A DNA stretch of 64,000 bases from Frigoribacterium sp. PvP032 (GTDB lineage: Bacteria; Actinomycetota; Actinomycetes; Actinomycetales; Microbacteriaceae): positions 1,922,001 to 1,986,000 of the forward strand of contig NZ_JAFIBM010000001.1 in assembly GCF_017833035.1 (NCBI RefSeq), given 5' to 3'. Position 1 is the stretch's first letter; every line of letters starts with the position of its first letter. This document shows, piece by piece, positions 6,706 through 24,218 of the stretch. The position numbers were made by a program, and so were the translations under genes. The notes below the pieces were generated by a model. It did no database searches and was not told the origin of the DNA. It saw nothing but the letters and a program-made list of their open reading frames with translations.

Positions 6706-7605
6706 TCAGCGTCCCGGGACCGTGCCGGGCTCGACGCCCTGCACGATCGGCACGCGCACCGCGCTGCCCCACTCGGTCCACGAGCCGTCGTAGTTGCGGA
6801 CGTTCTCGAACCCCATCAGGTGGTGCAGCACGAACCAGGTGTGGCTCGACCGCTCGCCGATGCGGCAGTACGCGACGACGTCGTCCCCGTCGGAGAGGCC
6901 GGCGCCGTCACGGTAGATCGCGTCGAGCTCGCCGAGGCTGCGGAAACGGCCGTCCTCGGCCGCCGCCCTGCCCCACGGCACGTTCTGCGCCGACGGGATG
7001 TGGCCGGCGCGGAGGGCGCCCTCCTCGGGGTAGGCCGGCGCGGTGGTCCGCTCGCCCGAGTACTCCTCGGGGGAGCGGACGTCGATCAGCGGCGAGCCGA
7101 GGTGCGCGAGCACGTCGTCCTTGTAGGCGCGGATGCGGCTGTCGTCGCGCTCGACGACGGGGTAGTCGGTGGCGACCGGCTCGGGAGCGTCGGTCGTGTA
7201 CTCACGGCCCTCCGCCTCCCACGCCGCTCGTCCGCCGTCGAGCAGGCGCACGTCGTCGTGGCCGAAGAGCGAGAAGACCCACAGGGCGTAGGCGGCCCAC
7301 CAGTTGTTCTTGTCGCCGTAGATGACGACGGTGCTGTCGCGGGCGATGCCGCTGCGCGACATCAGGGCGGCGAACGCCTCGCCGTCGACGTAGTCGCGCT
7401 GCACGGGGTCGTTCAGGTCGAGGTGCCAGTCGATCTTGACGGCGCCCGCGATGTGGCCGGTGTCCCAGAGGAGCACGTCCTCGTCGGACTCGACGACCAC
7501 GAGGCCGGGCGTGCCCAGGTGCTGCTGCAGCCAGTCGGTGCTGACGAGGCGCTCGGGATGGGCGTACTCGCTGAACCGTGCGGACGTGTCGTGCTCGACG
7601 ACCAT
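6706..7605 (-). CDS. sseA: Sulfurtransferase, tandem rhodanese (thiosulfate/3-mercaptopyruvate type)
   Basis: Two rhodanese domains in 299 residues. The N-terminal domain (about residues 15-140) is inactive-like; the C-terminal domain (about 155-285) carries the active loop [11 protein letters not shown] with C247. CRxGERS is typical of thiosulfate sulfurtransferases of the CysA/SseA type. Start ATG follows a strong AGGAGG at 7613-7619. It is cotranscribed with sufE downstream, which suggests persulfide delivery, although the physiological donor is not shown by the sequence. The gene symbol is provisional. Confidence 0.92.
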
Positions 7606-11484: not shown

Positions 11485-12996
11485 ATGACCACCGACTCGG
11501 ACGAGCAGACCTCACGGCCCGCGGCCGCGACCCGTTCCGCGGACGGCGTCCTCACCGGTGCCGTGCTCTGCCCGGTGTGCCATCAGCACCGTGGCCGTGG
11601 GGTCTCGCACCGCTGCGCAGCACCCGGCCTCGTCGTCCTGCCTGCCCCGGCTCACCGCATCCTCGACGCGCTCCGCGCTGCCGGCGGCCGCCCGCTCGTC
11701 GTCGGCGGCGCCGTCCGCGACGCTCTCCGCGACGCTCTGAGCGGAGGGGCCTCCAGCGCGACCCCGAAGGACGTCGACATCGAGGTCCTCGACGTGGACG
11801 AGCTCGAGCAGCTCCGCCCGCACCTGGCCCGCGTCGCCCGGGTCGACGACGTCGGAGCCTCCTTCGGCATCCTCGTCGCGACCGTCGGCGGAGTCGACTT
11901 CGACATCTCCGTCGCTCGCGAGAGGTCGACCGCGGGGGGAGAGACCGCCGCGTCCAGCCGTCGCGACTTCACCGCCAACGCCCTCGGCTGGGACTACGCC
12001 ACCGGCGAGCTCGTCGACCCCTGGGGCGGAGCTGCCGACGTCGCGGCGAGCGTCCTCCGCCGCGTGGGCCCGTCCTTCTCCGACGATCCCCTCCGGCCCC
12101 TCCGCGCCGTGCAGTTCGTCGCCCGCTTCGGGTGGCGCATCGACGAGGAGACGCTCGAGGCCTGCCGCGACCTCGCCCCGTCCTACGGCACCGTTCCGCG
12201 CAGCCGTGTCTGGGGCGAGTGGAAGAAGCTCGCCACCCGCGGGATCCACATCTCCCGGGCCGTGCAGGCCCTCGAGGACATGGGGTGGCTGTCGCACTTC
12301 CCTGCCCTCGCTGCGGCGCGAGGCGTCCCGCAGGACCCCGTCTGGCACCCGGAAGGCGACGTCCTCACCCACCTCGGCCTCTCGGCCGACGCCGCCGCGG
12401 CCTCCGCCGAGAGCAGCGGCCTGCCCGCTGACGCCCGCCTCCTCGCCGTCCTCGGGGCACTCGTCCACGACGTCGGCAAGCCGTACGTCACCGCCGTGAC
12501 CGACGACGGCCGCATCACGAGCTACGGCCACGACACGGTCGGCGACCCCGTCGCGCAGGACTTCCTCACCGGGATCGGCTCACCGCACGTCCTCCGAGAC
12601 CGCATCGGCGGGCTCGTCGCCGAGCACATGTGCCACGTCAGCACAGTGGGCTCGCCGACGAAGGCAGCGGTCAGGCGCCTCGTCAGGCGCCTGGACCGGC
12701 GGTCCGGCGTGACCATCCTCGACTGGGCCAGGGTCGTCGACGCCGACGTCGCCGGACGCGGCCCTGCCGGGAGCCCGCCGGTCTCGGGACCGTGGGTCGC
12801 CCTGGCGACCGAGCTCGGCCCTTCGCCCCGGAAGAGCCTCCTCACCGGACGTCACCTCATGAGCCTCGGCTACCGGCCGGGCCCGCAGCTCGGCGTGATC
12901 ATCGCGGCTGCCGTCGAGGCGCAGGACGACGGGCTCTTCGACGACGAGGAAGGCGCCGTCGCGTGGTTCGTCGAGCAGGAGGTGCCACGGGCCTGA
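11485..12996 (+). CDS. CCA-adding/poly(A) polymerase-type nucleotidyltransferase with HD domain and Cys/His N-terminus
   Basis: Class II tRNA nucleotidyltransferase-like protein, 503 residues. The N-terminus holds C29PVC32, then H42-R-C44, a possible small zinc site not usual for CCA enzymes. The polymerase head follows: LVVGGAVRDAL at 71-81, catalytic KDVDIEV at 95-101, RRDFTANALGWDY, and DDPLRPLRAVQFVARFGW. An HD domain with LVHDVGKP lies near residue 328. Start ATG has GAGGGAG just upstream. Two of the four adjacent tRNA genes lack an encoded CCA. It may be the tRNA CCA enzyme or a second family member; this window cannot decide. Confidence 0.82.
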   Translation: MTTDSDEQTSRPAAATRSADGVLTGAVLCPVCHQHRGRGVSHRCAAPGLVVLPAPAHRILDALRAAGGRPLVVGGAVRDALRDALSGGASSATPKDVDIEVLDVDELEQLRPHLARVARVDDVGASFGILVATVGGVDFDISVARERSTAGGETAASSRRDFTANALGWDYATGELVDPWGGAADVAASVLRRVGPSFSDDPLRPLRAVQFVARFGWRIDEETLEACRDLAPSYGTVPRSRVWGEWKKLATRGIHISRAVQALEDMGWLSHFPALAAARGVPQDPVWHPEGDVLTHLGLSADAAAASAESSGLPADARLLAVLGALVHDVGKPYVTAVTDDGRITSYGHDTVGDPVAQDFLTGIGSPHVLRDRIGGLVAEHMCHVSTVGSPTKAAVRRLVRRLDRRSGVTILDWARVVDADVAGRGPAGSPPVSGPWVALATELGPSPRKSLLTGRHLMSLGYRPGPQLGVIIAAAVEAQDDGLFDDEEGAVAWFVEQEVPRA

Positions 12997-15417: not shown

Positions 15418-15447
15418 CTACCTGCCCGTCGGCTACTTGCCCGTCGG
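15418..15447. repeat. 15-bp tandem duplication at the catalase stop
   Basis: CTACCTGCCCGTCGG (15418-15432) and CTACTTGCCCGTCGG (15433-15447) are adjacent copies with one difference. Read on the minus strand the second copy encodes the last residues PTGK and the TAG stop; the other copy repeats them downstream. Confidence 0.85.
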
Positions 15448-16160
15448 CCCGTAGAAGCTCTCGATGTCGGCCAGCTCCATCTCGGCGGTCTGCTGGATGA
15501 GCGACAGCAGGTCCTAGTCGAGGCCGGGGGAGAACTCCTCCAGGCGCTCGGGCGAGATCGTCGACGGTGCGCCCTTCGGCGCCTGCCCGGTCGACGACAG
15601 CTCCGTGCCGTCGCCCGACGGGGAGGTGCCCTGGAAGATCTTGCCTGCCTCCGACTTGCCGTCGAGGTCGAACGTGTACTGCTTGCTCTGCAGCCCGAGG
15701 TCGACGAGCTCCTTCACCTCGGGGAACTGCTCGGCGTTGGTCTTCGGGATCGGCAGCAGCTTGCCCCAGTCGACGCCCAGCGTCTCGAGTGCCTTGGCGT
15801 AGGCGTTCTCGTGCGCCTGGTCGCGCACGATCAGGTACGCGACGGTCTTGCGGGCCACGGGGTTGTCCGTCATCTCGTAGATGCGGCTCTTCTGCAGCCG
15901 GCCCGTCGACTCGAGCATCAGGTTGTACAGCAGGTCGAGCGGCAGGTTGCCCGAGTTGTAGACGTAGCTGCCGCTCCACGGGTTGCCCACCGAGTCGACC
16001 GGCAACGCGCCCTGGGCGCCCACGAGGTAGTGGTGGATGTTGCCCGTGTCGAGCGCGATGGCCAGGGGCGTCGCGCCTCCTGCACCCGGGGTGTCGAGCG
16101 GGTCGGTGAGCTTGCCGGTGTAGTCGGGGCTGCCGTCGAGCAGCCGGCCACGGCAGTGGT
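15433..16160 (-). pseudogene. Manganese catalase remnant: 5' half missing and internal amber stop
   Basis: The frame from about 16150 gives LLDGSPDYTGKL, DTGNIHHYLVGAQGALP, NPWSGSYVYNSGNL, LESTGRLQKSRIYEMTDNP and RDQAHENAYAKALE, which is the C-terminal part of a ferritin-like dimanganese catalase. Of the five metal ligands only the later two (E of LESTGR, H of DQAHEN) remain; the N-terminal helices with the first three are absent. An in-frame TAG at 15514-15516 follows SPGLD, and the frame then continues DLLSLIQQTAEMELADIES to the ancestral TAG at 15433. Upstream lies repeat-rich DNA. It is almost certainly inactive as a peroxide-detoxifying enzyme. Confidence 0.87.
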
Positions 16161-16232: not shown

Positions 16233-17081
16233 TCAGGCCGGCACGCGCTCCCAGCCGCCGTCCTCGGCGACGCGCACCGCGCCTCCGTCGCGGAAGGCCT
16301 CGAGCCAGCCGCCCATCGGCCACTCTCCCCAGCGCTCGGCGAAGCGCCGGCCGTTGCGGAGGATGTCGTCGAGGTGCTGCCAGGGCGGCGACGTCGTGGG
16401 GTGCCACTGGTGGTACGCGTGCGCCCCGCCGACCCAGACGAGCGGCAGGCCGAGCGACCGGGCCGTGAAGGCGAAGTCGGTGTCCTCGCCGCCGTAGCCC
16501 TCGTAGCCGGGCTCGAAGCCGCCGGTCCGCACCCAGGTGTCGGCCGTCAGGGCGAACGAGAGCGACCAGAACAGCGGGTACTGGTCGTGCCCGGCGACGA
16601 CCGTCTCGCCGGCGACGGGCGACGGGCGCGCCGCGTGCGGACGGGTGGCCGCCGCGAGCGAGTCGTCGTCGAGGCCGACGTGCCCCTCAGGCAGGTAGGT
16701 GACCGGGCCGCAGAGCAACGAGCCGGAGTGCGCCGCCGCGGCCGCCTCGTACCGGGCGACGAGGTCGGGGCCGGGGACGCAGTCCGCGTCGAGGAACACC
16801 ACGAGCGACGCGCCGAGGGCGATCGCCCGCTCGGAACCCGCGTTGCGACCGGCCGCGAGGCGCAGGCCGTGCGGTCCCGGCGGCACGTGCAGCACGTGCG
16901 CGTCCGCCAGCTCGGGGAGGTCGGGCGCCGGCGCCTCGTCGAGCCAGACGACGACGTGGGGCACCGACGGCCGGAGGCGCGCGAGGGCCTCGCGCTGCGG
17001 CAGGAGGTGGTCGAGACGGGCGGCCGAGCAGAGGGTCACCGCGACCGTCGAGCCGATCGGCCCCGACTGCTGCCCGGTCAC
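16233..17081 (-). CDS. Glycosyltransferase family 2 with galactosyltransferase-type C-terminal domain
   Basis: GT-A fold glycosyltransferase of 282 residues. The N-terminal strand is shortened (VAVTLCSAARLDHL), the nucleotide-sugar and metal site is FLDADC near residue 110, and the acceptor domain has GGFEPGYEGYGGEDTDFAF followed by AYHQWHP, the Glyco_transf_7C pattern. It is soluble with no membrane helix. Its GTG overlaps the stop of the upstream glycosyltransferase (GTGA). It is the last of four coupled genes. Donor and acceptor are unknown. Confidence 0.86.
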   Translation of the reverse strand: MTGQQSGPIGSTVAVTLCSAARLDHLLPQREALARLRPSVPHVVVWLDEAPAPDLPELADAHVLHVPPGPHGLRLAAGRNAGSERAIALGASLVVFLDADCVPGPDLVARYEAAAAAHSGSLLCGPVTYLPEGHVGLDDDSLAAATRPHAARPSPVAGETVVAGHDQYPLFWSLSFALTADTWVRTGGFEPGYEGYGGEDTDFAFTARSLGLPLVWVGGAHAYHQWHPTTSPPWQHLDDILRNGRRFAERWGEWPMGGWLEAFRDGGAVRVAEDGGWERVPA

Positions 17082-18145
17082 CGGGCGACCTCGGCGATCA
17101 CGGCCGCGGCGCGGGCGGCAGCGCCGTCGACCTGCCAGGGCGACCAGTCGGGACCGAGCGCGCGTGCCCGGTCGAGCAGGTCGGGCCAGTCGTCGGGGGC
17201 AGGCCACGCGTCGGGCGCGGTCGAGCCGGGCTCGGGCACGACGGCCAGCCCTCGGGCGGCGAGGAGGCGCGCGGTCGTCCGCTGCTCGTCGAACGGACGG
17301 TCCTGGGGCACGACGACGGCGCGGGCGCCGGCCGCCGCGAGGTCGGCGACGCTGTTCTGGCCCGCGGCGGAGACGACGACCTCCGCGCCGCGGAGGAGCG
17401 GCCACGGGTCGTCCACCCAGCTGTCGGCGGAGGCGCCGAGCACGGTCCACCGCCAGGCGGGCGTGGCAGCCGAGGCCGCGGCGACGCGCTGCGCGAGGCC
17501 CTCACGGCCCTCGGCGCCGCCGCCTGCCAGGACGAGGACGGTGCCGGACGACGGGGACGCGGGGCCGTCTGCACGGCCGTCGTGCCGGGAGATCCCGCCG
17601 ACGAGCCGGACCCTGTCCCGCACGCGCTCGAGTGCTGGCGAGACGTGCAGCCCCTCCGCCCAGGGCGCGAGGAGGCGATCGGCCGCGTCCCAGCCGAGGG
17701 CGTGCGCGGCGTCCGACCGGTCGCCGGGCTGCACCACGACGACGGGCGGCACGCCGAGCAGGCGGACGAGCAAGGTCACCTCGACGGAGACGTCGACGAC
17801 GAAGGCCCGAGGACGGGCGTGCGCGATCCAGGCAGCGACCGCCGCGAGCCGACCGGCGTGGCCGTCGTGGTGCAGCGGGGCCCAGTGCAGCAGCCCGCGC
17901 ACGGTCGGGTCTGCGCCCGACTCGGGATCGCCGGGGGCCCTGGTGGTGCCGTCGGGCGCGACGACGTCGTGGTCGTCCCGGGGGAGCTGCAGCCAGGTCG
18001 TCCCCTCGGGCAGGACGGCCGGGGCGGCCAGGGAGCTGAAGACGACGACGTCCGCCTCGAGGTGCGGCCGCACGGCCAGCAGCCGCGTGAGGTGCCCGGC
18101 GCCGTGGTGGTGCACGTACCAGCCGACGAGGGGCCGCGGGGTCAC
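17078..18145 (-). CDS. Glycosyltransferase, GT-B fold, MurG/GT28-like
   Basis: Protein of 355 residues that begins GWYVHHHGAGHLTRLLAV, the glycine/histidine loop of GT-B enzymes such as MurG and UDP-glucosyl lipid transferases. The C-terminal donor site shows VLVLAGGGAEG, then VVVSAAGQNSVADLAAAGARAVVVPQDRPFDEQ, where the glutamine-asparagine pair and the late aspartate/glutamate match nucleotide-sugar binding in GT28. It is coupled at both ends by 4-base overlaps. Substrate unknown; a lipid or glycan acceptor is likely. Confidence 0.83.
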   Translation of the reverse strand: MTPRPLVGWYVHHHGAGHLTRLLAVRPHLEADVVVFSSLAAPAVLPEGTTWLQLPRDDHDVVAPDGTTRAPGDPESGADPTVRGLLHWAPLHHDGHAGRLAAVAAWIAHARPRAFVVDVSVEVTLLVRLLGVPPVVVVQPGDRSDAAHALGWDAADRLLAPWAEGLHVSPALERVRDRVRLVGGISRHDGRADGPASPSSGTVLVLAGGGAEGREGLAQRVAAASAATPAWRWTVLGASADSWVDDPWPLLRGAEVVVSAAGQNSVADLAAAGARAVVVPQDRPFDEQRTTARLLAARGLAVVPEPGSTAPDAWPAPDDWPDLLDRARALGPDWSPWQVDGAAARAAAVIAEVAR

Positions 18146-19362
18146 GACCCTGCTCCCGGGACGAGCACGCGGACGGTGGCCCGGCCGCCCCCGGGACGGT
18201 ACGCGGCGACCAGGGCCTCGTGCACCTCCTCGACGACCTCGGCCCGCCGGTGCAGCGAGAAGCGGTCGAGGGCGTCGGCCCGCACCCTGCTGCGGAAGCC
18301 CGGCGTCGTCGACGCCGCCTCCGCGAGGCCGGCGGCGAGGTGGGCGAGCCCGGCCACGTCGCCCCTCGGCACGAGGCCGGCGCCGATGCTCGAGCCGACG
18401 ACCTCCGGGACGCCGCCGGTCGAGAACGACGCCACGGGCGTGCCGGTCGACAGGGCCTCGGCGATGACGAGCCCGAACGGCTCCTCCCAGCAGGGGGTGA
18501 CCAGGGCGCAGGCGGAGCGGCCGACGAGCTCGGCCAGCTCCGGCTGGCGCAGCGGGCCGACGTGCTCGGCGTCCGCGCCCAGCAGGGGCACGACCATCGA
18601 CTCGTGGTAGTCCACGTCGCCGACCCGTCCGGCGAGCACGATGCGCCGACCGGCGAGGCGCGCGGCCTCGATCGCCAGGTGCGGCCCCTTCTCGGGCACG
18701 ATCCGCCCGGTCCAGACCAGGTCGTCCCCCCCGGGGCCGAGGGGCCAGAGGTCGGTGTCGACGGCGTTCGGCAGCACGCGCGCCTCGACGCCCTCGGCCC
18801 GCCAGACGGCCGCGGTGTGCTCGCTGACCGCGAGGAACGCGCTGCGAGGCTCGACTCCTGCACGGTGGTGCTCGAGCAGGTCGGGCAGCGTGGGGGTGTG
18901 CAGGGTCGAGACGACGGGCACGCCGAGCTCGCCGGCGCGGGAGAGGACGTGGCCGCTCAGGGAGTGGTTCTCGACGACGTCGATCTCGTCGGCGTGGTCG
19001 CGGATCCAGTCCAGGGCGCGGTGAAAGGCAGGCAACGCCACCTCGAGGTAGCCGTCGGGGTAGCTCGAGTCGGTGGCGTCGGCCGGGTCGTCCCAGTGCA
19101 CGGCGGGGAGGGCGAACTCCGGCGGCCCGCCGAGCAGGTGGTCGCTGCCCTCGACGGCGCAGAGCAGCACCTGGTGCCCGCGGGAGCGGAGGACGCGCAC
19201 CTGGTGCCAGACGCTCGACTCCAGGCCGCCGGCGTGCGGCTCGGCGATCGGGTAGCGCAGGGGGGCCACGACGACGATGCGGCGTGGACGCTCGGCGGTG
19301 CGGACGCGCTCGACGGTCGTGGCCGACGAGGAGGTGGTGCCCGAGTCGTGCAGGGCCGTCAC
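18142..19362 (-). CDS. Glycosyltransferase family 4
   Basis: GT-B glycosyltransferase of 406 residues. The N-terminal domain begins RIVVVAPLRYPIAEPHAGGLES, typical of GT4 enzymes. The donor domain has LVWTGRIVPEKGPHLAIEAARLAG and the retaining E-x7-E motif in CWEEPFGLVIAEALSTGTPVAS. No signal peptide or membrane segment is seen, so it acts in the cytoplasm, probably with an activated sugar. The GTG start overlaps the preceding stop as GTGA. Confidence 0.9.
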   Translation of the reverse strand: MTALHDSGTTSSSATTVERVRTAERPRRIVVVAPLRYPIAEPHAGGLESSVWHQVRVLRSRGHQVLLCAVEGSDHLLGGPPEFALPAVHWDDPADATDSSYPDGYLEVALPAFHRALDWIRDHADEIDVVENHSLSGHVLSRAGELGVPVVSTLHTPTLPDLLEHHRAGVEPRSAFLAVSEHTAAVWRAEGVEARVLPNAVDTDLWPLGPGGDDLVWTGRIVPEKGPHLAIEAARLAGRRIVLAGRVGDVDYHESMVVPLLGADAEHVGPLRQPELAELVGRSACALVTPCWEEPFGLVIAEALSTGTPVASFSTGGVPEVVGSSIGAGLVPRGDVAGLAHLAAGLAEAASTTPGFRSRVRADALDRFSLHRRAEVVEEVHEALVAAYRPGGGRATVRVLVPGAGS

Positions 19363-20561
19363 GAGACGAGCTCCGCGGGTCGTGCCGAGCCGGCTGTGGC
19401 CTGCGCGATAGGCGCCGGACGGGCAGCGGCCGTGCCGACTGCGCGCTCGTACACGGCGAGGTGCGCCCGCGCGATCTCGTCGCGCTGCGCACGTCGCCGC
19501 TCCCGGCGCTCCGCCACGAGGGCCTCGCGGCCCTCCGACCCCGGCCGGGCGGGCTCGTCGGAGCGCGCCCGCAGGAGGGCGGCCACCGCGGCCGCCAGCT
19601 GGTCGGCGTCGCCGGCGTCGAAGGACGCGGTGTCCACGGCGTCGGGGTGCTGGTCGGCGACGTGGCCGACCCGCGGCGCCGCGACGGGCACGCCCAGGTC
19701 CCAGCTCAGCTCGACCCAGCCGGAGTGGGTGCCGTGCGAGTAGGGCAGCAGCACCACGTCGAGGTCGGCCAGCGCCTCGGCGAGCTCGTCGTCGCCCAGC
19801 CGCGGGTGCAGCACCAGGGAGACGTCGAGGTGGTCGGGCGCGTCGGCCACGAGGGCCCGCACCTCGGCGAGCGCCGAGGCGTCGCGCACGCGCTCGTTGA
19901 CGTCGACGCGCACAGTGACTGGCTCACCGGCCTCGGCCAGCAGCCCTGCGGCGGCGATCAGGGTCGCGACGGAGCCCGGGCCGTCGACGTTGGGGCGCAG
20001 GTCGCGCAGGCTGACGCCGACGACGACCTCGTCGCGCGCCGTGCCGGTCGGGGCGACCGCGTCGAGGGGCAGGAGGTGCGGGTGCGGCACGACGACCGGC
20101 CGACGTCCGAAGGTGCGCTCGACCTCGGCAGCGGCGCCCTTTGTGAGCGTGATCAGCTCGTCGGACTCGGCGACGAGCAGCCCGAGGTGGGCCAGGTGCG
20201 GCGCCTGGTCGACGAGCTGGGGGTTGACCAGGTCGTGCACCGTGTGGACGAGAGGGATCCGCGCGGCACGGGCGGCGTCGACGACGCGGCGGAGGTGGTC
20301 GAGGCCGTACGACTCGGTGCCGAAGTGCACGTGCAGCACGTCGACCTCGTCGGCGTGCTCGGCGATCCAGCCGGCGTCGAGCACGACGGGCGGCCACCAG
20401 CGGGCGGGCTCCGCGGGGTCGGGCAGAGGGTCGGCGAGCCGCAGCACGGCACGGGTCACGGCGGACCCGTCGACCGGCTGGAGGTGCTGCACGTAGGGGT
20501 GCCCGGCGGGCACGGACGCGACGCGGAGGGCGTCGCGGGCGGGCGGCGGGGTGTCGATCAT
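19359..20561 (-). CDS. Glycosyltransferase, GT4-like
   Basis: First gene of the minus-strand glycan operon, 400 residues. It has the GT-B layout: DVLHVHFGTESYGLDHLRRVV and IPLVHTVHDLVNPQ in the acceptor domain, and PYSHGTHSGWVELSWDLGVPVAAP in the donor domain. The normal E-x7-E motif is replaced by H-S-G-W-V-E-L-S-W, so donor binding may differ. The ATG is preceded by GGAGG at 20565-20569; the frame is open further upstream without a better signal. The C-terminus is rich in Arg, Ala and Glu. Confidence 0.83.
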   Translation of the reverse strand: MIDTPPPARDALRVASVPAGHPYVQHLQPVDGSAVTRAVLRLADPLPDPAEPARWWPPVVLDAGWIAEHADEVDVLHVHFGTESYGLDHLRRVVDAARAARIPLVHTVHDLVNPQLVDQAPHLAHLGLLVAESDELITLTKGAAAEVERTFGRRPVVVPHPHLLPLDAVAPTGTARDEVVVGVSLRDLRPNVDGPGSVATLIAAAGLLAEAGEPVTVRVDVNERVRDASALAEVRALVADAPDHLDVSLVLHPRLGDDELAEALADLDVVLLPYSHGTHSGWVELSWDLGVPVAAPRVGHVADQHPDAVDTASFDAGDADQLAAAVAALLRARSDEPARPGSEGREALVAERRERRRAQRDEIARAHLAVYERAVGTAAARPAPIAQATAGSARPAELVS

Positions 20562-20815
20562 CGGGCCTCCTCGGCTCAGTCGTTGCGCGACGGTCGGCGA
20601 GGACCGTCGGGAGGTGAGCCGGGGCGACTCGGGGACCCTGGGGAGACCGGGGGCCCGGTTCGCGTCGAGGGAGGAGGCCGATGGGAGCGGCCTCTGTGCA
20701 CCATAGCCCGCGACGGCCCCCCGTGCCCGCTCGCGGATCCTGGCCCTCGCGGCCCCGCATCCAGCACGATGGAGTCGTGACGTCCGCAGCTCACGGGACG
20801 TCACGGAGAGGCACC

Positions 20816-21748
20816 ATGACCCCGCACACCCAGGCCGTCGACGGCCGCACCCGGCACTACGGGCATTTCTACGGTCTCGGCGAGCATGAGGGCGACGGCC
20901 CCGTGGCCGTCGTGATCGGCAACTGCCAGGCCGAGTCGCTCCGCGTCGCTCTCGACGGGGGCGGTCTCCGCACCGTCCGGACACCTGCTGTTCACGAGCT
21001 CGTCACCGCCGACCTGCCGCACCTGGAGCGCTGGCTGGCCCGCGCCTCCCTGCTCGTCTCGCAGCCGGTGCGCGACGACTACCACGACCTCCCGCTCGGC
21101 ACTCGGCAGCTGACTGCCCGGCTCGGGCCGACGGCGCGCGTCGTCGCCGTGCCCGTCATCCGGTTCGCCGGCCTGTACCCGACGTCGGCGATCGTCCGGC
21201 CTCCGCACGACCCGTCGCTGGTGCCGCCGCTGGTCGACTACCACGACCTGGTCGTGCTGGCGGAGGCCGCTGCTCGCCGCGACGGCACGACGCCCCGCGT
21301 CCCCCGGCTCGACGCGGAGGCGGTCCGGTCGGTCGCGGCGCTCTCGCTGCACGAGCTGCGGAAGCGCGAGGAGGCGCACGACGCGGTGGTCGTGTCCGAC
21401 CTGTTCGAGCACCCGTCGTTCGCGCAGATGCGGACGCTCAACCACCCGGGCAACCCCGTGTGGACGGCGCTCGCGTCACGGGTCCGTGAACGCCTGGGGC
21501 TGGCCGAGCACGTGGTCGACCCGGGACGTCAGCTGCTCGACAGCGTCCACGCACCCCGCCTGGAGGCGGTCGTCGTCGCCTACGGGCTCGACGAGGAACC
21601 CACCGACCACTGGGTCGTCGAGGGCACCCGCGTTCCCCGCGAGGAGGTCAGGGAGGCGCACCTCCGGTGGTACGAGCGCGAGCCGCAGGTCGTCGACGCC
21701 GGCCTCGCCCGCCATGCCGACTCGCTGGCGCTGCTGGGCCTGGCGTGA
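20816..21748 (+). CDS. WcbI-like polysaccharide biosynthesis protein
   Basis: Protein of 310 residues with VAVVIGNCQAESLRVAL near the N-terminus, the GNCQ signature of the WcbI family, and later SDLFEHPSFAQMRTLNHPGNPVW, which resembles the family's conserved D-x-x-HP/NHP part. WcbI of Burkholderia capsule clusters is a CoA-binding enzyme thought to modify capsule sugars. The ATG follows GGAGAGG; an in-frame GTG at 20777 is an alternative. It is the first gene of the plus-strand arm of the glycan cluster and overlaps the next by GTGA. Function here is inferred. Confidence 0.75.
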   Translation: MTPHTQAVDGRTRHYGHFYGLGEHEGDGPVAVVIGNCQAESLRVALDGGGLRTVRTPAVHELVTADLPHLERWLARASLLVSQPVRDDYHDLPLGTRQLTARLGPTARVVAVPVIRFAGLYPTSAIVRPPHDPSLVPPLVDYHDLVVLAEAAARRDGTTPRVPRLDAEAVRSVAALSLHELRKREEAHDAVVVSDLFEHPSFAQMRTLNHPGNPVWTALASRVRERLGLAEHVVDPGRQLLDSVHAPRLEAVVVAYGLDEEPTDHWVVEGTRVPREEVREAHLRWYEREPQVVDAGLARHADSLALLGLA

Positions 21749-22830
21749 GCACCCTCGACCGCACGGCGCAGGCTCCGTCCGTGCCGGCCCTCGTCGTCAC
21801 CGACGACCCGCAGCACGGCGTCAGCGGCCTCGCCCGCCACGTCTCCGAGGCCGTGACCCGCCGGACGGGCCGCGACCACTCGGTCTCGCCGGCCGACCTG
21901 GCCGGGCCGACGCCGCCCGCCGCCGCGCACCTGCACTTCACCGACCGGCTCTGGGCGACGTCTCCCGAGGCCGCCGCCGACCGCCTCGTCGACCTGGCTG
22001 GCCGCGTCGCGCTCACGGTCACCCTGCACGACCTGCCCCAGCCCTCGGACGGCGAGCGCAACCTCGTCCGGCGCGGCGACTGCTACCGGCGCGTGGTCGA
22101 GGCGGCGGCGGGCACCGTCGTCAACAGCGAGCACGAGGGGCGGCTGCTCGCCGAGCACACGACGACCACGGTGCGCCCGGCCGTCGTTCCCCTGCCCGTC
22201 GACCTCGCGCCGCCTCTCGCCGAACGACCAGCGCCCGACGGCACCGCGGCCGTCATCGGCTTCGTCTACCCGGGCAAGGGCCACGCGGAGCTCGTCGACG
22301 CCGTCGCCCGGCTGCGGGCCGGCGGCGACGACGCGGCAGGGGCGCTGCGCGTCACCGCGCTCGGCCGTGCCAGCGCGGGGCACGAGGCCGAGACCGACCA
22401 GCTCGTGGCGGAGGCCGCCTCCCTCGGGGTCGTCCTCGACGTGACCGGGTACCTCGACGACGCCGTGCTCCTCGACCGCTGCCGCCGCGCCTCCGTGCCG
22501 GTCGCCGTGCACCGGCACGTCTCGGCGTCGGGCTCGATCGCGACCTGGATCGGCGCCGGGCGACGCCCGATCGTGCCGGACACCCGGTACTCCCGCGAGA
22601 TGGCCGCCCTCAGGCCCGGCACCCTCACGCTGATCGACGACGACCCCGACTCCCTGGCCCAGGCGCTCGTGCGGGCCGTCGCCGACCCCGACTCGACCTG
22701 GCTGTCGCCGGACGCCGTCACGGCGCCGGGCATCGACGACGTCGCGGCGGCGTACCTGGCGTGGTGGGCCGATGGCGACCAGCTCGGCCGTGGACACGCC
22801 GACCCCGAGCGCACGGCGGCGACGTCGTGA
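21745..22830 (+). CDS. Glycosyltransferase, GT-B fold
   Basis: Protein of 361 residues with a GT4-like plan: PALVVTDDPQHGVSGLARHVSEAV at the start, VALTVTLHDLPQP, VVNSEHEGRLLAEH, and a donor domain with VIGFVYPGKGHAELVDAVARL and a sugar-nucleotide loop HRHVSASGSIATWIGAGRRPIVPDT. The E-x7-E motif is not obvious. No signal peptide. GTG start overlaps the WcbI-like stop, and the stop overlaps the next gene, so three proteins are made from one coupled message. Confidence 0.82.
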   Translation: MSTLDRTAQAPSVPALVVTDDPQHGVSGLARHVSEAVTRRTGRDHSVSPADLAGPTPPAAAHLHFTDRLWATSPEAAADRLVDLAGRVALTVTLHDLPQPSDGERNLVRRGDCYRRVVEAAAGTVVNSEHEGRLLAEHTTTTVRPAVVPLPVDLAPPLAERPAPDGTAAVIGFVYPGKGHAELVDAVARLRAGGDDAAGALRVTALGRASAGHEAETDQLVAEAASLGVVLDVTGYLDDAVLLDRCRRASVPVAVHRHVSASGSIATWIGAGRRPIVPDTRYSREMAALRPGTLTLIDDDPDSLAQALVRAVADPDSTWLSPDAVTAPGIDDVAAAYLAWWADGDQLGRGHADPERTAATS

Positions 22831-24218
22831 CCGACGACCCGAGAGACGAGGAGGCGCGGGCGCAGTCCCCGAGACGGCCTCGGGGAGTCCCCGGCAACCG
22901 CTGGGACCTGCTCGACGGCCTCGTCCCCGACCCGCTGCCGACCGTCTCGGTGGTCGTGGCGCACTACCGCCAGCAGGCCGAGCTCGACCGCACCCTCGCC
23001 GCCCTCGCGCGGCAGGACCACCCGGCCGAGCTGCTCGAGGTCGTCGTGGTCGACGACGGCTCGCCCGAGGCGCCCCGGGTGCCCGACGGCGTGCGGCTGG
23101 TCGTCCAGGCCGACGAGGGCTTCCGGCTCTCCGCGGCCCGCAACCTCGGGGTGCGCTCGTCGACGGGCGAGGTCATCTGCTTCCTCGACGCCGACACGGC
23201 GCCCGAGCCCGGCTGGGTCACCGCCATGTCGAGGCTGCCCGGCCTCGCACCCGAGGCGGTCGTCGTCGGCACGCGGCGCCACGCCGACTTCGCCGGAGTC
23301 CCCGTCGACGCACCCGTCGAGCAGGAGGGGCCCCGGCACGAGCTTCCCGCACCGCGCTGGCTCGACGACGCCTACCGCGGCAGCCGCGACCTGCTCGACG
23401 CCGACGACCGCTCGTACCGGCACGTCATCGGCGCCGTGCTGTCGTGCTCCCGCTCGTTCATCGAGACCATCGGCGGCTTCGACGAGGGCTTCACCACCTA
23501 CGGCGGCGAGGACTGGGAGTGGGCCTGGCGGGCCTGGCGTGGGGGCGCGCTGCTCGCCCACGAGCCCGCCGCCGTGGCCTGGCACGACGGCCCGGACTGG
23601 GCCGGCCGGGACTCGGTCGACCGCCAGCGCCAGAAGAACGGCGAGACTCTCGTGCTCAGCGGGCTCGTCCCGGTCGAGGGCTCGCGGCCCCGGGGCCTCC
23701 GCGGGACGACCGCCGACGTGCTGGTCCGGCTCGCCGCGGCGCCCTCGGCGGGCACGGCGTGGCTCTGCGTCGACACGGTCCTGGCCGCGCTGCCGGCCTG
23801 CGTCGTCGCGGTGCCCGACGAGCACCTCCCCCTCTTCGCCGCCGACCCCCGGGTCGTCGGGGCCTCGGACGAGGCCGCCGCGCGGGCGGCCCGCACCGCA
23901 CGGGTGACCGTCGACCTGCCGGCGCCGGTGCGCGTCCGGGACGCGGCCCCCCTGCTCGAGGCGGTCGCCTCGGTCGGGGTCGGCACCCTCGGCACGGTCG
24001 AGGTGGTGACGGCGGGCGTGGCGGGCGACGAGCCGGACGGCGCACCCGGCGCAGGAGGCGGCGCTCCCGTCCTGCGCATCCGCTCGAGCCGGGCCGAGGC
24101 CCGCGCCCTGCTGCACGGCACCGAGGAACTCTTCGAGACCCGCAGTGGCCGAGCCCGGTGGTGCGAGCGGATCGAGGGCGAGCCCTCCCTCGCCGCCTAC
24201 CTGGGCGGCTGGGGCTGA
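22827..24218 (+). CDS. Glycosyltransferase family 2 with additional C-terminal domain
   Basis: 463 residues, of which about the first 285 form a GT-A enzyme: TVSVVVAHYRQQAELDRTL, VVVDDGSPEAP, AARNLGVRSSTGEVICFLDADTAPEPGW, and an acceptor domain GGFDEGFTTYGGEDWEWAWRAW with WHDGPDW (Glyco_transf_7C). The remaining roughly 170 residues (from VLVRLAAAPSAGTAW) have no motif I recognise; they contain alternating strands and helices rich in Val and Ala. GTG start is coupled to the previous gene. It is followed by a strong hairpin. Confidence 0.86.
   Translation: MTDDPRDEEARAQSPRRPRGVPGNRWDLLDGLVPDPLPTVSVVVAHYRQQAELDRTLAALARQDHPAELLEVVVVDDGSPEAPRVPDGVRLVVQADEGFRLSAARNLGVRSSTGEVICFLDADTAPEPGWVTAMSRLPGLAPEAVVVGTRRHADFAGVPVDAPVEQEGPRHELPAPRWLDDAYRGSRDLLDADDRSYRHVIGAVLSCSRSFIETIGGFDEGFTTYGGEDWEWAWRAWRGGALLAHEPAAVAWHDGPDWAGRDSVDRQRQKNGETLVLSGLVPVEGSRPRGLRGTTADVLVRLAAAPSAGTAWLCVDTVLAALPACVVAVPDEHLPLFAADPRVVGASDEAAARAARTARVTVDLPAPVRVRDAAPLLEAVASVGVGTLGTVEVVTAGVAGDEPDGAPGAGGGAPVLRIRSSRAEARALLHGTEELFETRSGRARWCERIEGEPSLAAYLGGWG

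Follow-up and report, generated by a model that had tools for sequence, protein, structure and literature searches.

In phosphatidylinositol mannoside (PIM) synthesis, cytosolic GT-B enzymes act on a membrane lipid and CoA-dependent acylation follows; the cluster has no flippase of its own. WcbI proteins are, to our knowledge, unrelated to the PatA-type acyltransferases. The WcbI of Burkholderia pseudomallei is encoded in a capsule cluster (CPS-I); its structure has Cys14 and His201 positioning acetyl-CoA, and no transferase activity was detected in vitro (PMC4104973). As for other capsules, the TupA-like domain of Cj1438 of Campylobacter jejuni forms amides on glucuronate (PMC11800379), and the chondroitin polymerase K4CP of Escherichia coli K4 is a two-domain GT-A protein. 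Here we describe a seven-gene module with likenesses to each of these systems in Frigoribacterium sp. PvP032. It lies in a window of 64,000 nucleotides, positions 1,922,001-1,986,000 of a single-contig genome of 3.33 Mb, and gene coordinates are given as positions in that window. Six genes for glycosyltransferases (GTs) and one for a WcbI-family protein form two divergent arms, four genes on the minus strand and three on the plus strand, around a gap of 254 bp. A first-pass annotation of the DNA had described this layout, and its coordinates match to the base; the GTGA overlap that it reported for every internal junction is read at all five. The features are as follows.

16233-17081, minus strand: A, GT2/GT-A glycosyltransferase with Glyco_transf_7C (Pfam and motifs); last gene of the left arm
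17078-18145, minus strand: B, GT-B glycosyltransferase with a GT28 C-terminal domain (Pfam); GTGA overlap with A
18142-19362, minus strand: C, GT4 glycosyltransferase (Pfam and EX7E)
19359-20561, minus strand: D, divergent GT4-like glycosyltransferase (Pfam just below cut-off, and motif); first gene of the left arm
20562-20815, no strand: divergent intergenic region of 254 bp, the gap between the arms
20816-21748, plus strand: E, WcbI-family protein (Pfam and motifs)
21745-22830, plus strand: F, GT-B glycosyltransferase of GT4-like fold (structure model; sub-threshold in Pfam)
22827-24218, plus strand: G, GT2 with 7C motif and a second alpha/beta domain (Pfam, motifs and structure model)

These seven genes very likely act in one pathway, and the best explanation, to which we give an even chance, is a soluble cytosolic assembly line that builds an acylated oligosaccharide on a lipid-type carrier. 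The conservation of the module carries the first of these statements. Scanning for E in one genome per species gave 60 named loci, in which gene order was established by tblastn of all seven proteins. The order A-B-C-D <- -> E-F-G, in the same orientation, which the first-pass annotation had proposed to seek across Microbacteriaceae, is present in 33 of the 60, from four families: in Microbacteriaceae (Frigoribacterium, Frondihabitans, Subtercola, Labedella, Agrococcus and Microbacterium), in six strains of the Actinoplanes group (Micromonosporaceae), in Serinibacter (Beutenbergiaceae) and in two Rhodococcoides (Nocardiaceae). NTGA overlaps recur at the junctions of relatives (D/C 41/41, C/B 41/47, B/A 43/46, E/F 41/41 and F/G 48/48), and the divergent gap measures 123-415 bp, as called. 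No regulator was identified in the 254-bp region of the window.

The surroundings of the module are unrelated from one locus to the next; outside close relatives, and apart from generic ABC genes, the flanks have little in common. Within 5 kb, a generic ABC-transporter family occurs in 20 loci and every other family in at most 13 of about 80. A tree built on B, C, F and G, with some long branches, nests the versions from Actinoplanes and Serinibacter among those of Microbacteriaceae, and a single clade of all non-Microbacteriaceae rows is rejected (AU p = 0.00095). This nesting and the rejected clade point to horizontal transfer of the module, within the limit set by the long branches.

The genes also keep company when they are not neighbours. 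In a 200-genome sample of the family, E is present in 30 genomes and B in 36, with both in 29 (Fisher p = 3e-27); the sole genome with E and without B (G153) is a fragmented assembly with E on a 4.5-kb contig. At genus level, all 15 genera with E fall within the 19 that have B, of 85 (p = 2e-13). Among further genomes whose E locus is without the left arm, B is found elsewhere in 24 of 24, the two sets sharing some species. In the phylum-wide sample of 396 genomes, B occurs in 17 and E in four, and the three E genomes other than that of the window also carry B. The co-occurrence that the first-pass annotation made its test is thus very strong, at 29 of 30 and 24 of 24 E genomes with B. Since the genes co-occur when the arms are unlinked, the functional link does not come from adjacency alone. 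The arms are divergent, and unlinked in many genera, as would be expected if two unrelated glycosyltransferase operons had come to lie side by side by chance; however, an order kept in 33 loci of four families and the near-perfect co-occurrence of unlinked genes refute this in practice, and we give it hardly any credence. We also considered that loci with only the WcbI gene might serve a separate function, and rejected the idea: in such genomes B is present at another place, together with the quartet A-D and often with F-G.

Four main layouts were distinguished. The first is that of the window, A-B-C-D <- -> E-F-G; in the second, A-B-C-D <- -> F-G, E lies elsewhere and an extra convergent GT4 gene (H) is often present; in the third, A-D and E-F-G occupy separate loci; in the fourth, D <- -> E-F-G (or F-G), A, B and C are elsewhere. 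H itself is found in 9 of 37 cassette genomes and 1 of 163 others. Several distant genomes (L243-L246 and L253) have a plain D-C-B-A operon, the 20 kb read there containing none of E, F and G, and others are rearranged. Judged by distribution among genomes, the core of the module is the quartet D-C-B-A, which reaches other actinobacterial classes, and WcbI and F-G are separable add-ons. The mirrored two-arm layout noted in the first-pass annotation is real, here and in relatives, but it is one among four or more arrangements and is not essential.

Other accessory partners vary with the lineage. A TupA-like ATP-grasp gene (PF14305) is present in 15 of the 37 cassette genomes and in 3 of the 163 others (p = 4e-10; by genus 10/19 and 2/66, p = 2e-6). 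It adjoins the cassette in several genera and is absent from the genome of the window. In a Plantibacter (L132, 5677-7356), a GT2 is fused to the TupA-like ATP-grasp, as in Cj1438, beside the module and an alpha/beta hydrolase gene. As the TupA-like domain of Cj1438 makes glucuronate amides, the analogy suggests a uronic acid in the glycan of TupA-positive species. The resemblance to the C. jejuni capsule ends there, TupA being an accessory only and no capsule export genes having been seen beside the module. Stf0 or other sulfotransferase genes and a PlsC-like acyltransferase gene adjoin distant quartets. Two genera of the same order, from a different family, have the module or its WcbI gene next to genes for an acyl-CoA-dehydrogenase (ACAD)-like protein and a NodS-like methyltransferase, and in one of them the methyltransferase is fused to PIG-L, its gene overlapping E by 4 bases. 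A cluster of this kind is also found in the genome of the window, where three overlapping genes at about 346,088-349,715 encode an ACAD-like protein, a PIG-L/NodS-like methyltransferase fusion and a GT2, with a GAF-ANTAR regulator gene just upstream. PIG-L/methyltransferase genes occur in 30 of 37 cassette genomes and in 40 of 163 others (genus p = 3e-5), with genome size as a possible confounder.

E matches the Pfam family WcbI (PF18588) with 232.7 bits for a cut-off of 29.2 (E = 4e-69), its residues 31-231 covering positions 2-204 of a 205-position profile. Cys37 of the GNCQ motif is found in 50 of 50 members whose called start covers the motif, and His210 of NHPGN in 53 of 53. From their position in the motifs, these residues appear to correspond to Cys14 and His201 of the Burkholderia protein; a phmmer search of E against the PDB gave no match. 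Because WcbI uses a Cys and a His to bind CoA, and because both motifs are kept without exception where covered, E is a probable CoA-dependent acyl- or acetyltransferase, judged at the level of the family. The locus resembles CPS-I in the full-length WcbI match, in the two motifs and in the setting of the gene among GT genes. It differs in that WcbI there is part of a capsule cluster, whereas the module lacks genes for a polymerase, an exporter and sugar-nucleotide synthesis and has another set of GTs.

The count of six GTs and one WcbI-like protein given by the first-pass annotation holds, on Pfam matches for most and on an AlphaFold2 model for F. So does its placing of a GT2 with Glyco_transf_7C at the outer end of each arm: A scores 25.7 and G 33.1 bits with this profile (cut-off 23). 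Both carry DAD (residues 98-100 in A, 121-123 in G) and GGED (197-200 and 226-229), and G also matches Glycos_transf_2 with 67.3 bits. B matches Glyco_tran_28_C (27.6 bits, cut-off 22). C has strong matches to both Glyco_transf_4 and Glycos_transf_1, and its canonical EX7E (E294, E302) is present in 33 of 33 aligned family members. The Glyco_transf_4 score of D, 27.8 bits, is just below the cut-off of 28.5; EX7E is absent at the usual place, and GTxSGWxE...D is invariant. F has no EX7E at the usual place either, and its best Pfam score, 17.5, is sub-threshold. Its model (pLDDT 91.9) has a GT-B fold, with PimA as the top structural match and further matches to SenB, GlgM, TarM, SdgB and GtfA. 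PimA is a GT with a lipid acceptor, and this match has been taken as support for such an acceptor here; in contrast, none of the module proteins belongs by sequence to the families of PIM synthesis.

As for G, its closest overall fold is that of K4CP, to which it aligns over most of its length (E 8e-27, TM about 0.64, 19% identity). Its second alpha/beta domain (residues about 285-463) is confidently modelled and may be a degenerate counterpart of the second GT-A domain of K4CP, but it is shorter, at about 180 residues, and has no obvious DXD. G further has structural matches to polypeptide GalNAc transferases and a remote match to the mycofactocin glycosyltransferase MftF (84.5 bits, cut-off 280). 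Together with the matches of F to SdgB and GtfA, the former recall cytosolic protein O-glycosylation, in which soluble sequential GTs and an acetyltransferase-like protein, in an arrangement resembling this one, assemble a glycan on an exported protein or several, serine-rich-repeat adhesins being an example. However, such fold matches are generic, and the loci read show neither adhesin nor accessory Sec genes close to the module, nor a gene for any other conserved target protein, so that we regard this explanation as improbable.

No polymerase, flippase, sugar-nucleotide or phosphoglycosyltransferase (PGT) gene is found among the Pfam-annotated genes of the window, which are a part of its genes, in agreement with the first-pass annotation. 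Nor is a flippase, polymerase or PGT gene present in any arrangement among the neighbours annotated in relatives, again a part of the total, and no sugar-nucleotide gene was seen travelling with the module in any of them. The idea of a dedicated, conserved set is borne out in that no Wzx, Wzy, Wzm, Wzt or PGT gene travels with the module in the relatives annotated. A Wzm/Wzt exporter pair was not found beside the module; the right-hand neighbour is an ABC importer (solute-binding protein, permeases and ATPase), conserved only in near Frigoribacterium. The genome of the window has just two PF02397 PGT genes, at 156 kb and at 2098 kb, both more than 100 kb from the module (window at 1922-1986 kb), and PF13440, the sole flippase family searched, has no match. 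A capsule or teichoic-acid locus as genomic context was rejected: none of the relatives examined has the genes within a recognised one, and no polymer genes occur among the annotated neighbours in any arrangement. A defence island was likewise rejected, PADLOC matching none of the seven proteins at E 0.001.

The absence of export genes is also what would be expected if the GTs added a WcbI-acylated side chain, before export, to a wall or membrane glycopolymer made by other loci, as TarM/TarS do on wall teichoic acid. The genome has two initiating PGT genes, one of them adjoining genes for a GT4 and a CDP-alcohol phosphatidyltransferase, and Wzy_C-type proteins, all away from the module, and TarM is among the structural matches of F. 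However, six GTs make a large set for a side chain, none of the relatives read shows genes for a polymer backbone beside the module, and the quartet spans classes whose wall polymers should differ. We hold this decoration to be a tentative possibility. On fit alone, a new carrier-linked oligosaccharide and the decoration of something made elsewhere do equally well.

The GT and WcbI proteins have no convincing membrane segment, the highest 19-residue hydropathy (2.09) falling inside a folded domain of G. As the module proteins are all soluble and none of the arrangements includes an exporter, the product might stay in the cell, as a soluble oligosaccharide or a glycosylated small molecule such as a stress protectant. 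The remote likeness of G to MftF would fit, and so would the catalase genes near module loci in several genera and the GAF-ANTAR regulators that flank some quartets, which hint at stress-linked expression. However, the WcbI and TupA families have been described in pathways for surface polysaccharides, and the link with catalase was seen post hoc, in a minority of loci. We consider such an intracellular product rather unlikely.

Catalase genes, of Mn-type or KatE, were observed near module or TupA loci of unrelated genera (L126, L135, L216, L279, L219, L245, L250, L252 and the window). They lie near 7 of 108 loci, a post hoc observation; for 46 control genes the median is 0, with values of up to 25 in large paralogous families. 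In the window, a 5'-truncated manganese catalase gene (15439-16146, minus strand) keeps residues 81-316 of a 317-residue relative (L033, 97% identical), the first 80 being missing; F. faeni (L032) and strain ACAM 257 (L033) have full-length copies on that side of the cassette. A distant A-D quartet (L248) is flanked on each side by a GAF-ANTAR regulator gene (6725-7558 and 11784-12554), and related regulators occur in about ten loci. The catalase neighbours may hint at a stress regulon.

Returning to the assembly line on a lipid-type carrier, the sugars, the order of action, the acyl group, the lipid acceptor and the mode of export are all part of what we propose. D, C, B and A, three GT-B enzymes and one GT-A, would build the conserved part of the chain, which F and G would extend or branch. 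E would move an acyl group, probably acetyl, from CoA onto the chain. In some relatives, a uronic acid would receive an amine or amino acid, in amide linkage, by the action of the TupA-like ATP-grasp. The chain would start on a housekeeping lipid, be it a glycerolipid, phosphatidylinositol or polyprenyl phosphate, with housekeeping sugar nucleotides as donors, and leave the cytosol by a housekeeping flippase. Donors, carrier and export of this kind are the most likely because no flippase, polymerase, PGT or sugar-nucleotide gene travels with the module. The lipid carrier is our preferred guess, by analogy with cytosolic glycolipid assembly of the PimA type.

Several points weigh against this scheme. 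The likeness of F to PimA (TM about 0.6, 19% identity) reflects the general GT-B/GT4 fold only, SenB, GlgM and TarM scoring alike, and says little about a lipid; the acceptor and the product are putative, and the lipid carrier is something we infer. E is absent from 7 of the 37 cassette genomes, so that acylation is not essential. The founding WcbI was inactive as a transferase in vitro (PMC4104973), which keeps acylation at the level of the family, and the Cys/His correspondence comes from motif position rather than from an alignment to the Burkholderia protein. Finally, phylogeny enters the co-occurrence tests through the genus-level count only.

It is tempting to go further and to see in D-C-B-A a widespread, undescribed pathway, with a fixed core of four GTs and exchangeable tailoring, for a family of exported lipooligosaccharides tied to stress survival, a speculation that we find possible and no better than doubtful. 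Tailoring would then comprise acylation by WcbI, amidation by TupA, sulfation of the Stf0 type and possibly de-N-acetylation and N-methylation by the ACAD/PIG-L-methyltransferase/GT2 cluster. Judged by title, none of the literature naming WcbI is on actinobacteria, and searches on Frigoribacterium, on Microbacteriaceae glycans and on the PIG-L cluster found nothing relevant. The parts belong to known families; their combination and distribution appear to be new, with no description in the literature searched.

A pathway that is kept intact across actinobacterial families even though its genes are scattered must make a useful product. The module is a defined and testable gene set, and it gives the little-understood WcbI family a genetic context in which to find its substrate. 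For Frigoribacterium, Frondihabitans, Agreia, Plantibacter and Microbacterium, it provides marker genes for an overlooked glycan.

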